Source: Methylomonas sp. UP202 (lineage in GTDB: Bacteria > Pseudomonadota > Gammaproteobacteria > Methylococcales > Methylomonadaceae). Taken from it: 64,000 nucleotides of DNA. The stretch is from positions 1,798,001 through 1,862,000 of the forward strand of contig NZ_CP123897.1 in assembly GCF_029910655.1 (NCBI RefSeq), in the 5' to 3' direction. A model generated the notes under the pieces. It had not been told where the DNA came from. It did no database searches and was given only the letters and a program-made list of their open reading frames with translations. This document shows, in pieces, positions 12,949 through 27,578 of this stretch. Numbering within the stretch: position 1 is the stretch's first letter; every line of letters starts with the position of its first letter. Made by a program: the position numbers and the translations under genes.

Positions 12949-12976
12949 TGTAAGGTATGACACTCTCCAAACGACT
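12949..12976 (+). promoter_or_regulatory. ECF-type promoter upstream of the sigma gene
   Basis: TGTAAGG (12949-12955), preceded by a T run, and CGACT (12972-12976) are separated by 16 bp and end 35 bp before the sigma-factor ATG. The same two elements occur before the HvfA precursor gene, and a close variant before the bufferin precursor gene. An autoregulated ECF promoter is the simplest reading. Confidence 0.55.
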
Positions 12977-13011
12977 CAGCCTGTAGTCGGTCCGACTAAG
13001 GAGATTAACGC

Positions 13012-13614
13012 ATGTTGCTGAGCGCAGAGATGAACCCACCCGATCAATTGAACGAAGTCCTGCTGGCCGAACATCGTCAGGTGTTGTTTCGTTACGCCTT
13101 GTTGCAATTGAAGGATAACGAACTGGCCGACGATGCGGTGCAGGAAACATTATTGGCCGCTTGGCAATCGTCCGCGAATTTCCAAGGCAAGGCCGGTTTG
13201 CGTACCTGGCTGATCGGTATTTTGAAACATAAGATTGCAGATCATTGGCGGCGAAGTGCACGAGAGATCACCGCCTCGGATTTCGATCAGCACGATGAAC
13301 TCAGCGGTGAAAACTACGAGGATGACTTTTTCACTGAAAACGGCCGCTGGATTAGCAAGCCTGCTGCTTGGAACGATCCTGAAGCAGCACTCAAGCAACA
13401 GGAATTCTGGACGATTTACGAAACATGTCAGAACAACCTGCCGCCGAAAATGGCCCAGGTGTTCATGTTGCGCGAACTGGTTGGATTGGAAGCAGAGGAA
13501 GTCTGCCAGGAGACAGGCATCAGCGACGCCAATTACTGGGTCACCATGCATCGCGCCCGCTTGCGGTTGCGCGAATGCCTGGAAATTCGCTGGTTTAATC
13601 GATCAATCAATTAA
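13012..13614 (+). CDS. ECF-type RNA polymerase sigma factor
   Basis: 200 residues. Region 2 is visible around residues 20-85 (DDAVQETLLAAWQ and RTWLIGILKHKIADHWRR). Region 4 is at about 140-195 (LPPKMAQVFMLRELVGLEAE, then the helix-turn-helix GISDANYWVTMHRARLRLRE). The linker is about 50 residues, rather long. Sigma factors of this group direct RNA polymerase to stress promoters. A small zinc-finger gene follows by 12 bp, the usual place of the anti-sigma. The ATG at 13012 has AAGGAG in front. Its own promoter-like motif recurs before the HvfA-type operon 2.5 kb downstream and, as a variant, before the bufferin operon, so I infer these are its targets. Confidence 0.93.
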   Translation: MLLSAEMNPPDQLNEVLLAEHRQVLFRYALLQLKDNELADDAVQETLLAAWQSSANFQGKAGLRTWLIGILKHKIADHWRRSAREITASDFDQHDELSGENYEDDFFTENGRWISKPAAWNDPEAALKQQEFWTIYETCQNNLPPKMAQVFMLRELVGLEAEEVCQETGISDANYWVTMHRARLRLRECLEIRWFNRSIN

Positions 13615-13626
13615 AAGGAATGCTTG

Positions 13627-13809
13627 ATGCGTCGTTGTAAAGAAATTACCGAATTGGTCTCCAAAGACTTCGACAAACCGCTTCGGCCAACCGAGAAACT
13701 TGCAGTCAATGTTCATCTGCTGATGTGCTCTCATTGCCGGAACTTCCGCAACCAAACCGAGTTTATTCGTAAAGCGGCTAGAAGCTATTGGGATCATCGT
13801 CCCAAATAG
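13627..13809 (+). CDS. Small zinc-finger anti-sigma factor (zf-HC2-like)
   Basis: 60 residues, no membrane segment. It holds an early Cys (C4) and the pattern H30-xxx-C34-xx-C37, matching the zinc-binding H-x3-C-x2-C of ZAS-type anti-sigma factors. AAAAGGA just upstream supports the ATG at 13627 rather than the TTG three bases earlier. It follows the ECF sigma gene by 12 bp, so the two form a sigma/anti-sigma pair. Being soluble and Cys-based, it would sense a cytoplasmic signal such as oxidant or thiophilic metal; this is inference. Confidence 0.75.
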   Translation: MRRCKEITELVSKDFDKPLRPTEKLAVNVHLLMCSHCRNFRNQTEFIRKAARSYWDHRPK

Positions 13810-13833
13810 CGCCTAACCGCCGACATCTGCCAT

Positions 13834-25585: not shown

Positions 25586-26356
25586 TCAACGGATAAAAAA
25601 GCCGGTTAGCAAACCCATGCGCAACCAGCGCGGTAGATAAAGGTCTAGCGGCGGCGCGGTGGTTTCGCCGCTTGGCCGGTCCATCGCCTGACTCAGCGTC
25701 AATCCGGCCGCCAACGCGGACAGCAGCCGGAACTCGCCGCGTTCGATTTCGCTGGCGTTCACCTCGAAACCGTTGCGATGCACCACGACATGGCTGGCAC
25801 CTTCGGCCAGCGAAATCGGTGTGGCGGCGTCGGCGTCCGGCAAATTGGCTTGCCAGATCGCGAAAACCGGGTAAGACGATGCCAGCAAGCGCAACGAGGG
25901 GTGGAAGCGCAGACGCAGCGCCGGATAAAGGCTGGCCGGCACCGCCGCCAGGGCGCGCGCGTCCAGCAGCGCGGCGTCGGCGGCGTGATAGGCGCCGTGC
26001 CAGTACCATTCCAGGCGGGCGACGTCGGCTAGATAGTCCAGCCCGTGGGTCGGCGGAAAATCGGTCAAAAAATCGGCCAGCGCCTCGCCGTAATGCAGCA
26101 AGGCTGCTTGCGCCGGCGGATGAGCTTCGATGAAAAACCGCGCCAGATAATTGAAAAATTGCTCGCCGACCAGGCGTTCGACGACCGGATATACCTCGCG
26201 CAAGGCTTGGATCAGGCCCAGGCGAGTATTGTTGCGATATAGCGCCAAGCGTTTTTCGGCGGCGATTTCGCCGCCGACGATAGCCGCCGGCACCCGTTCG
26301 GCCAGGCCGAACGCGTAGTCCGCCATGTCTTGTTGCAAATCACGCAATGCATGCAT
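25586..26356 (-). CDS. bufC: DUF2063 partner protein, BufC-type
   Basis: 256 residues. The DUF2063 domain (LRDLQQDMADYAFGLAERVP, then YRNNTRLGLIQALREVYPVV and FFNYLARFFIEAHPP) is clear. The C-terminal half ends with PLDLYLPRWLRMGLLTGFFI. The family delivers the precursor to the DUF692 enzyme. It overlaps the upstream DUF692 gene by 17 bp, so the two are translationally coupled. Confidence 0.92.
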   Translation of the reverse strand: MHALRDLQQDMADYAFGLAERVPAAIVGGEIAAEKRLALYRNNTRLGLIQALREVYPVVERLVGEQFFNYLARFFIEAHPPAQAALLHYGEALADFLTDFPPTHGLDYLADVARLEWYWHGAYHAADAALLDARALAAVPASLYPALRLRFHPSLRLLASSYPVFAIWQANLPDADAATPISLAEGASHVVVHRNGFEVNASEIERGEFRLLSALAAGLTLSQAMDRPSGETTAPPLDLYLPRWLRMGLLTGFFIR

Positions 26357-27221
26357 CGTTGGTCTCCAATAACTCGTCGGCCTTGGCGGCCTCGTTTAGC
26401 AACACCGGCCAGGCCGGCAAATCCGCATCCCATTCGATCAAGGTCGGCCGCCGGCCGAAGCGTTGCAACACTTGCCGGAACAGTTGCCAGACCGATGCCG
26501 CCACCGGACCGGCGTGGGTGTCCAGCAGCAGGTTCGCGGTATCGATAGTACGCAACGCATGGCCGGCCAGATGCAATTCGCCTACCCGCTCGCCGTCCAA
26601 CTCGGCCAGATAATCGGCCGCGTTCCAATGCAGGTTGTGGCTGGACACGTACAGATTGTTGACGTCCAGCAGAATGCCGCAGCCGCTACGCCGGGCCAGT
26701 TCGTTCAAAAACCCGCTTTCGCTGTAGTCGGCTTCCCGGTATTGCAGATAGCCGGCCGGGTTTTCGATCAGCAGCGTCCGTCCCAGAAAATCCTGGACCC
26801 GGTTCAGCCGGTCGCACAGGTGGAGCAGTGTGGCTTCGGTATAAGGCAGCGGCAGCAAGTCGTTCAGATAGCGGCCGCCTTGCGAACTCCAACTCAAATG
26901 TTCCGAGACCAGACCGGGCTCGACGCGGCCGATCAAATGCTTGAGTTGGCGTAAATGCTCGCTGTCCAGCGGGTCTGTCGAACCCAGCGACAGACCGACG
27001 CCGTGCAGACTGATGGGCAACGCGTCTCGCAAGGTTTCCAGGTAGCGCAGCGGCGGACCGCCGGCGCCGAAATAGTTTTCGCTGTGGACTTCCAGCCAGC
27101 CGACCGGCACCGGGCCGGCCAAGGCGTCGCCGTGATGGGCCGAACGCAGGCCGACTCCGGCGCAAGCCGGAATCGGCGCGGCGACCCGCCGCGAAAGTTG
27201 TGAGGATCGTGGCGTCGTCAT
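26340..27221 (-). CDS. bufB: DUF692 multinuclear iron oxidase (MNIO), BufB-type
   Basis: 293 residues. All DUF692 metal-ligand motifs are present: SEHLSWSSQGGRYLNDLLPL, LLIENPAGYLQY, LLDVNNLYVSSHNLHWN, LHLAGHALR, LLDTHAGPV and LIEWDADLP. BufB enzymes oxidise two Cys of the bufferin precursor into thiooxazole groups that bind copper. It starts 9 bp after the DUF2282 precursor gene. Sequence is clearly diverged from the HvfB-type copy at 15.9 kb, so the two clusters are not a recent duplication. Confidence 0.95.
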   Translation of the reverse strand: MTTPRSSQLSRRVAAPIPACAGVGLRSAHHGDALAGPVPVGWLEVHSENYFGAGGPPLRYLETLRDALPISLHGVGLSLGSTDPLDSEHLRQLKHLIGRVEPGLVSEHLSWSSQGGRYLNDLLPLPYTEATLLHLCDRLNRVQDFLGRTLLIENPAGYLQYREADYSESGFLNELARRSGCGILLDVNNLYVSSHNLHWNAADYLAELDGERVGELHLAGHALRTIDTANLLLDTHAGPVAASVWQLFRQVLQRFGRRPTLIEWDADLPAWPVLLNEAAKADELLETNDACIA

Positions 27222-27230
27222 CGCGGCGGC

Positions 27231-27503
27231 TTACATGCCGGGCATCTGGGTTTGGCCGCCGACGATGCGTTCGCAAGTGCCGGCCGGCACGGCGATGAAG
27301 GCGTCTTTTTGGCCGTCGCTGGTGGAATGGCCGGCGCAGGCGTTGGACAAGGTCTTGCAATCGTTCTTGCCGGCCTTGGCGACGCCGTAGCATTTCTCCA
27401 TGTCCATCTTGTCTGCGGCCACCGCCGTGCTTTGCGCGCCGATCGCGGCCAAGGCTAACAACGAGGCGACAGCGCTGGTAATGATAGTGTTCGAGTTTTT
27501 CAT
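27231..27503 (-). CDS. bufA1: Bufferin precursor, DUF2282/BufA1 family
   Basis: 90 residues. A Sec signal peptide (about 1-30, ending AVAA) is followed by the DUF2282 core with four Cys: C38 (KCYGVAKAGKNDC), C49, C56 (SNACAGHS) and C77 (PAGTCERIVGG). In bufferins these four Cys give a disulfide and two thiooxazole groups made by BufB/BufC, and the exported product sequesters copper. GGAG lies at a proper distance from the ATG. It heads a seven-gene leftward operon ending with msrPQ. Confidence 0.95.
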   Translation of the reverse strand: MKNSNTIITSAVASLLALAAIGAQSTAVAADKMDMEKCYGVAKAGKNDCKTLSNACAGHSTSDGQKDAFIAVPAGTCERIVGGQTQMPGM

Positions 27504-27549
27504 GGTGGTATCTCCAATTAAGTGGTTTGGTTTGAGTGGTGTCGGCGGC

Positions 27550-27578
27550 GCTCGCCGCGACGTATTAGGTATTACAAA
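27550..27578 (-). promoter_or_regulatory. ECF-like promoter of the bufferin operon
   Basis: On the minus strand TTTGTAATA (27578-27570) and CGAGC (27554-27550) are 15 bp apart, 46 bp before the precursor ATG. It resembles the TTTGTAAGG/CGACT pairs before the sigma gene and the HvfA gene but differs in two positions of each element. Confidence 0.4.

Follow-up and report, generated by a model that had tools for sequence, protein, structure and literature searches.

Bufferins and HvfA peptides have recently come to be recognised as RiPPs (ribosomally synthesised and post-translationally modified peptides) that buffer copper, and the regulators named for them, at least in the accessible portions of the literature, are sigma factors of the extracytoplasmic function (ECF) type. 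The captophorin chemistry covered by the same kind of excerpts comprises 5-thiooxazole and copper binding (PMC12668002, PMC12452194). In Caulobacter, a single ECF sigma factor, SigF, controls two DUF2282-DUF692-DUF2063 operons together with YedY, of the MsrP family, according to the available part of the report (PMC3511200). In Haemophilus influenzae, the corresponding excerpt describes an ECF sigma factor, RpoE2, with a 67-aa zinc-binding anti-sigma (ZAS) partner, HrsE, controlling a DoxX/COG3767/COG3220/DUF2063 cluster under hypochlorite (PMC7907618), while in Neisseria the sigma gene SigE/Ecf (NGO1944) adjoins, by gene number, the DUF2063, DUF692 and DoxX genes NGO1945-1948 (PMC2954202, PMC7907618, both in part). 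Here, we analyzed a window of 64,000 nt (C1:1798001-1862000, genome G000) from a 5.68-Mb, two-contig Methylomonas genome, in which an ECF sigma gene, an hvf operon and a bufferin operon lie within 15 kb. The initial annotation had read all three as one regulon of that sigma factor, with Caulobacter as the precedent. We propose instead that the sigma-hvf and bufferin operons are probably switched on separately. The explanation by two switches, the ECF sigma factor for its own operon and hvf, and RpoN with an activator for the bufferin operon, is one that we hold with high confidence.

The Caulobacter precedent is real, and YedY is indeed part of it; nevertheless, in the available text SigF has a DUF1109 anti-sigma factor, the motif GTAACC-N16-CGAA and two operons that are both DUF2282-type (PMC3511200), and the DUF2282-msrPQ operon of our window carries a sigma-54 promoter instead. 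For the hvf half, H. influenzae RpoE2 is, on the accessible excerpts, the closer precedent. We take its cluster as hvf; it differs in its other targets, msrAB and a DMT transporter, and in the very limited autoregulation of rpoE2 reported in that excerpt (PMC7907618), and the relatives studied here add pit, ArsM-like methyltransferase, DUF547 and VTT-oxidoreductase genes. Unlike in Neisseria, where the sigma gene adjoins the MNIO (multinuclear non-heme iron-dependent oxidative enzyme) gene cluster in the text available (PMC2954202, PMC7907618), hvf is a separate operon here. The bufferin half is best compared with GAF/PAS sigma-54 enhancer-binding proteins, which share the GAF-PAS-AAA+(GAFTGA)-Fis architecture, the palindromic upstream sites and the -24/-12 promoter, whereas the activator described below is associated with a bufferin operon. 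In the open-licence literature, we found no report of sigma-54 control of MNIO/DUF692/DUF2282 clusters, and none joining Competibacter with DUF692 or Methylomonas with extracytoplasmic function and copper; the one paper joining DUF692 with sigma-54 deals with ECF sigma factors of S. meliloti. The sigma-hvf link adds one more case to the ECF-controlled hvf clusters already known, while for the bufferin class regulation by RpoN together with a dedicated activator would be a new variant. A conserved RpoN promoter and a dedicated GAF/PAS sensor-activator offer a testable second input to bufferins. Methanotrophs rely on copper for methane oxidation, and two copper-peptide pathways placed on two switches suggest that they answer different signals.

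The three strings behind the single-regulon proposal are present with their spacers, at 12947-12976 (+), 15514-15542 (+) and 27578-27550 (-). The loose pattern TTTGTAA-N15..20-CGA has three matches in the 64 kb against a mean of 0.86, and 4 of 100 shuffles reached three, which is only mildly unusual. A genome-wide search gave 53 matches of TTTGTAA-N15..19-CGA against 49 in a reversed control, indicating that the pattern is uninformative alone. Neither TGTAAGG-N14..17-CGA (26 matches genome-wide, 26 in the control) nor TGTAA-N16..20-CGACT (17 and 45) showed an excess, and loose motif counts, which did not rise above the reversed controls, were dropped as evidence. The tight form TGTAAGG-N14..16-CGACT-N-A occurs at exactly two sites in the genome, before the sigma gene and before hvfA, and at none in the control. 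A short ECF-like string beside a sigma gene is weak evidence unless conserved.

We then scored the three sites with a position weight matrix built from the hvfA sites of 17 relatives, the window being excluded. The hvfA site scored 30.4 (the maximum), the sigma site 22.3 and the bufA site 1.7, a value equaled or exceeded by 12% of 4000 random windows from the relatives' sigma loci. Therefore, the sigma and hvfA sites are far above chance, and the bufA site is at chance. The ECF promoter proposed before bufA (TTTGTAATA..CGAGC) thus did not survive scoring with the motif of the local sigma factor (that of SigF was not the one used), nor was it conserved: before the close bufA genes of 11 relatives, scores ranged from -10 to 4.5. 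That one ECF sigma factor drives the sigma, hvf and bufferin operons together is, in our judgment, very unlikely, even with all three strings present, the operons within 15 kb of each other and SigF controlling two MNIO operons in the accessible Caulobacter text (PMC3511200). Some relatives do have bufferins downstream of a tight motif, though 185 to 217 nt away (BufA2-type; G064, G014 and G025), and G014 has a DUF2282 protein behind one, though at 344 nt. Besides the scores, the proposal is contradicted by a sigma-54 element at the very spot before bufA, by three genomes (G079, G141 and G147) that have a bufferin and no sigma match at 1e-30, and by a genome labelled as the same species that does not share the co-location. 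On matrix scores, conservation and synteny, we rejected the single regulon.

The bufferin operon and the elements upstream of it are as follows (domain scores are given against the model cut-off):

22956..23624, - strand: MsrQ, heme subunit of MsrPQ (NF003831, 196.7 vs 130)
23569..24486, - strand: MsrP, methionine sulfoxide reductase catalytic subunit (NF003767, 469 vs 207)
24498..25118, - strand: protein of the cytochrome P460 family, in the same operon; its start is approximate (PF16694, 79.2 vs 27)
25106..25573, - strand: DoxX-family protein (PF07681, 61.8 vs 23.6)
25586..26356, - strand: BufC, DUF2063 (PF09836, 79.9 vs 27.2)
26340..27221, - strand: BufB, MNIO bufferin maturase (NF050167, 370.5 vs 310)
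27231..27503, - strand: BufA1 (DUF2282) bufferin precursor, 90 aa, 4 Cys (PF10048, 85.7 vs 22.4)
27574..27588, - strand: predicted -24/-12 promoter of the sigma-54 type for the bufferin operon, TGGCACGGCGTTTGT, conserved at close bufA loci
27675..27710, - strand: probable upstream activator site, palindromes CCACCACTATTGGCGG and CCGCGAATAGTGGCGG (CCRC-N8-GYGG), 19 nt apart, based on conservation

The gene order bufA-bufB-bufC-doxX-P460-msrP-msrQ has gaps of no more than 12 nt or overlaps, and the window holds every component of a Buf1 pathway (DUF2282 precursor with 4 Cys, BufB, DUF2063 and DoxX). Either msrP or msrQ lies within the bufferin stretch read in 8 of 11 relatives, and the operon carries msrPQ in most of the methanotrophs read. 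A periplasmic copper chelator together with a periplasmic methionine sulfoxide reductase would fit copper or reactive-chlorine stress.

Sigma-54 promoters are recognized by a -24/-12 consensus element. The string TTTGTAA of the initial annotation begins inside such an element, its TTTGT being the -12 end. In all 13 close bufA loci (11 relatives plus two copies of the M. koyamae type, one of them that of the window), TGG[CT]A[CT]-N5-TTG[CT] is found 74 to 85 nt before the bufA start codon, and it is absent from all 10 distant bufA upstream regions. Across the window, TGGCAC-N5-TTGC with one mismatch has 4 matches against 7.4 expected, that is, no excess, and therefore the element is meaningful only by its conservation at bufA. 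From this promoter (TGGCAC-N5-TTGT in the window), RpoN polymerase would transcribe the whole operon, from bufA to msrQ.

Farther upstream, two palindromes resembling CCRC-N8-GYGG are present in 13 of the 13 close loci, in a block starting 121 to 125 nt before the TGG, the second copy being imperfect in some. With a matrix of the first palindrome built leaving each group out, the site outscored every one of 500 random windows in 12 sequences of the 13 and 496 of 500 in the remaining one; in L196, the best match was to the second palindrome, not the first. Inverted-repeat scoring of single regions was less discriminating, since in 7 of the 13 sequences, the window included, at least 16 of 200 shuffles scored as well. 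In its own genome, the bufA site is the only one within 3 mismatches of the palindrome pattern used.

In every one of the 11 relatives, bufA has a divergent neighbor encoding a protein of ca. 640 aa, truncated in G004 where the contig stops; a domain scan of one of these proteins showed GAF, PAS, Sigma54_activat and Fis-type helix-turn-helix domains. At E <= 1e-150, this activator is found in 14 of 151 genomes, 13 of which are exactly the 13 with a close bufB (>=57% identity); in the 14th, the gene lies at a contig edge. The activator stays below the cut-off of all 25 NCBIfam models listed, the best of which are of the FhlA, NifA and NorR types. In its N-terminal part, an invariant Cys column is shared by all 16 proteins compared; a second is confined to the 11 proteins from Methylomonadaceae. 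There is no sigma-54 activator domain within the 64-kb window; the orthologue of this genome lies far from the operon, at C1:3223921-3225765, with 69% identity (next best, 46%), an open frame, the GAFTGA motif and the PSTLRYRMKKLGI helix, and rpoN is present as well. Both M. koyamae-type genomes keep the orthologue, but neither has it next to the bufferin operon. As we picture it, the GAF-PAS-AAA+-Fis protein would bind the two palindromes and activate the bufferin operon, from a head-to-head position in close relatives and in trans, from 3.22 Mb, in this species. Membership of the bufferin operon in the proposed ECF regulon is not supported: its motif coincides in part with the -12 half of a sigma-54 promoter, which is conserved and comes with a conserved upstream site and a co-occurring activator.

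The loss of linkage allows another scenario, a promoter in transition, in which the linked activator and the C at -12 have been lost and the operon is now driven otherwise, by the housekeeping sigma factor or, weakly, by the ECF sigma factor through TTTGTAATA. The -12 of the window, TTGT in place of TTGC, and the displaced activator of both M. koyamae-type genomes would agree with it, whereas the paired palindrome has been retained at its distance, the orthologous activator is kept in both genomes (and intact in that of the window), and Competibacteraceae have TTGA or TTGG at the same position. We consider this scenario unlikely.

In order to put these loci into perspective, bufferin loci of the family were read at small scale for 30 of 31 matches (26 genomes) and at up to 20 kb in 15 genomes, and a scan of named genomes confirmed 80 loci of 147, 74 of them with a usable bufA upstream region. 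Of 18 activator-bearing loci, 17 have the element, with TTGN at -12, compared with 4 of the 56 that lack the activator (background, 1.1% of windows). One of those 4 (L318) is the M. koyamae copy, and two (L330 and L352) come from contigs 5.6 and 4.6 kb long; for L336, the piece of sequence examined contains no activator. The exact palindrome CCRC-N8-GYGG was present in 19 of the 21 element loci, and its start is always 121 to 125 nt upstream of the element (3.7% of stretches in the background); among these are loci titled Competibacter, Contendobacter or Competibacteraceae. In Competibacteraceae, the activator has only ca. 45% identity and is encoded downstream of bufA, on the same strand, and the -12 reads TTGA or TTGG, which places the TTGT of the window within natural variation. 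Of the 52 loci lacking both element and activator, 15 are accompanied by a nearby TGTAAG..CGA motif or sigma gene, which is what one would expect of bufferins under ECF control.

One could argue that the divergent activator controls only its own gene or another target and that the TGGCAC element is there simply through common descent, given that close relatives inherit neighbors and promoters together and that the function of the activator is deduced from its sequence. We give this hardly any credence: element and site are on the bufA side at a fixed distance and survive in M. koyamae without a linked activator, and Competibacteraceae keep both despite the divergence and the different placement of their activator. 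RpoN control of the bufferin operon has its own weak points. The -12 was relaxed to TTGN only after the Competibacteraceae upstream regions had been seen, and the strict TTGC/TTGT pattern matched only 6 loci (7 with L319). L357, a weak activator match, is missing the element; L332 and L335 have no exact palindrome; and of the 19 loci that do, 11 have just a single exact copy. In the window itself, the -12 reads GT rather than GC, which may weaken the promoter, and the unlinked activator makes control in trans a matter of deduction in this species. On balance, it seems likely to us that RpoN and a dedicated GAF-PAS activator with its own palindrome govern the DUF2282 bufferin operon of Methylococcales and Competibacteraceae, in place of the control by ECF sigma factors known from elsewhere, and that a single methanotroph thus runs two copper-thiooxazole pathways on two independent alternative-sigma systems.

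The ECF half of the locus consists of the following features:

12947..12978, + strand: predicted ECF promoter of the sigma operon, TTTGTAAGG-N16-CGACTCA (matrix score 22.3; one of only two tight genomic sites)
13030..13614, + strand: ECF sigma factor of NCBIfam family TIGR02943, start perhaps 13012 (219.6 bits vs cut-off 162.2)
13624..13809, + strand: 61-aa zinc-binding anti-sigma, zf-HC2 (NF052368, 74.9 bits vs cut-off 50; PF13490)
15514..15544, + strand: predicted ECF promoter of the hvf operon, TTTGTAAGG-N15-CGACTGA (matrix score 30.4, the maximum)
15605..15931, + strand: HvfA-like EGKCG-type precursor, 108 aa, 6 Cys (below both NCBIfam cut-offs)
15947..16819, + strand: HvfB-family MNIO maturase (NF003818, 403 bits vs 360; PF05114)
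16816..17577, + strand: HvfC, DUF2063 + NGO1945_C (NF050145, 253.6 vs 142)
17574..18167, + strand: HvfX, DoxX-family protein (NF050144, 119.8 vs 80)

RpoE2 and SigE are members of the same TIGR02943 family. The sigma loci read were the best 40 of 67 other matches in the 151 genomes of the family, some of them stopping at a contig end. We located hvfA by tblastn in 19 of them, and the ECF motif precedes it in 17 of the 19; these carry TGTAAGG in 16 of 17 cases and CGACT in 17 of 17, though the search required only TGTAA and CG[AT]. HvfB, HvfC and HvfX are all above their cut-offs in one operon (gaps hvfA-B-C-X of 15, -4 and -4). Together, the tight motif, its conservation and the matrix scores uphold the shared ECF promoter of sigma and hvfABCX, and it is well supported, as far as sequence can tell, that the TIGR02943 sigma factor with its 61-aa zinc anti-sigma would control hvfABCX. 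The claim of a self-regulating sigma factor that also governs both peptide pathways stands in its first part, as the sigma gene has its own ECF promoter with the shared motif and the factor probably regulates itself; only bufferin membership falls away. Held by the ZAS anti-sigma, the sigma factor, once freed, would recognize TTTGTAAGG-N15/16-CGACTNA before its own operon and hvfABCX, leading to the EGKCG-type copper peptide. The likely trigger would be thiol or metal stress at the zinc site of the anti-sigma, by analogy with RpoE2/HrsE; its motif, C5-X25-H-X3-C-X2-C, fits the ZAS definition C/H-X23-26-H-X3-C-X2-C given in the available part of PMC7907618.

At the family level, a tight site was present in 51 of 63 sigma-positive genomes against 12 of 88 sigma-negative ones, with 101 sites against 26 in the control in the former and 16 against 26 in the latter. 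We read 116 of the 117 sites (one in G035 was left out). The most frequent downstream genes were of the hvfA type, 29 in the precursor cluster and 3 more before hvfA that had been split off by clustering; one of the 29 is doubtful (L094, at 340 nt, really the site before the anti-sigma gene). Other recurrent genes were pit (13), sigma (9), ArsM-like (8), VTT-oxidoreductase (8) and DUF547 (7), followed by the HD-domain protein divergent from hvfA (4) and BufA2-type bufferins (3). A further 21 clusters were single-member and 2 sites had no open reading frame; these mostly look like chance, but the singles in L062, L066 and L207 have an assigned target. As in the window, the motif lies directly before sigma in L062 and L065; it is ca. 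220 to 310 nt upstream in five others, and in many other relatives it heads a pit (phosphate permease)-ArsM-like methyltransferase-sigma-anti-sigma operon.

Some of these data count against the ECF half as read here. In most relatives, the motif heads an upstream operon or lies farther off, not at the sigma gene; no ECF motif was found before hvfA in 2 of the 19 loci (L068 and L094); and the family-wide list of 117 sites compares with 52 in the reversed control, implying that many single sites are chance. HvfA itself, which carries a single EGKCGEGKCG, stays under the NCBIfam cut-offs (NF050188, 22 bits vs 95; NF050137, 18.9 vs 19.5).

The side-by-side placement of both RiPP classes, emphasized as unusual in the initial annotation, is found in the window and is missing from a draft genome of the same species, where the blocks are on different contigs. 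Its bufferin contig aligns at 96 to 98% identity over window positions 19,191-32,925, breaks at 19,191 and continues with other sequence, while sigma-hvf (13,048-18,137) is only 72 to 77% identical to the copy on another contig. Because identity differs in this way on either side of 19,191, the neighborhood looks more like the meeting point of two blocks that have had separate histories than like a conserved supercluster. The bufB of Methylomonas koyamae R-45383 is 98 to 99% identical to that of the window, and among the 40 sigma loci a bufB match lies nearby only in L067. A 123-nt inverted repeat, 89% complementary (19806-19928 and 28782-28904), brackets the lactonase-msrPQ-bufferin block and may have helped to move it.

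Within the block, a gene for a lactonase-like beta-propeller lies ca. 1 kb after msrQ (window 20839-21927), and another is placed between bufA and bufB in G126 (L196:8120-9217), which suggests a functional tie to bufferins. The BufA2-type bufferins located 185 to 217 nt behind a tight ECF motif in three relatives (L090:9903-11200, L249:549-1045 and L303:1538-2009; two of the three tested with NF050166, that of L090 directly after sigma/anti-sigma) can be set against a survey whose accessible text reports sigma and NrsF genes for clusters of the Buf1 type and not for those of the Buf2 type (PMC12452194).

Between sigma and hvfA, the window has a MerR-family regulator and a divergent MetE-like gene (13834-15507), an arrangement shared with L074 (G067) at 70% and 82% identity. 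The HD-domain protein divergent from hvfA has its own tight motif, back to back with that of hvfA (L064:8147-8203, L066:4733-4790, L264 and L266). In L077, L097 and L099, an HvfA-type precursor adjoins HvfX, with no HvfB or HvfC match in the stretch read. The pit-arsM-sigma-anti-sigma operons behind a tight motif include those of L063:7196, L064, L066, L072, L078 and others. PstS, DUF3047, DUF547 and VTT-FAD oxidoreductase genes also recur behind the motif, and this set of targets hints at an arsenic/phosphate side of the ECF regulon. The genome of the window had no match to the ArsM-like gene at 1e-20, a search that is weak as proof of absence. Finally, a tight motif is found close to where the sigma gene ends, immediately ahead of that for the anti-sigma, in L094:3238, L099:9720 and L266:1249, where it could possibly act as an extra feedback promoter.

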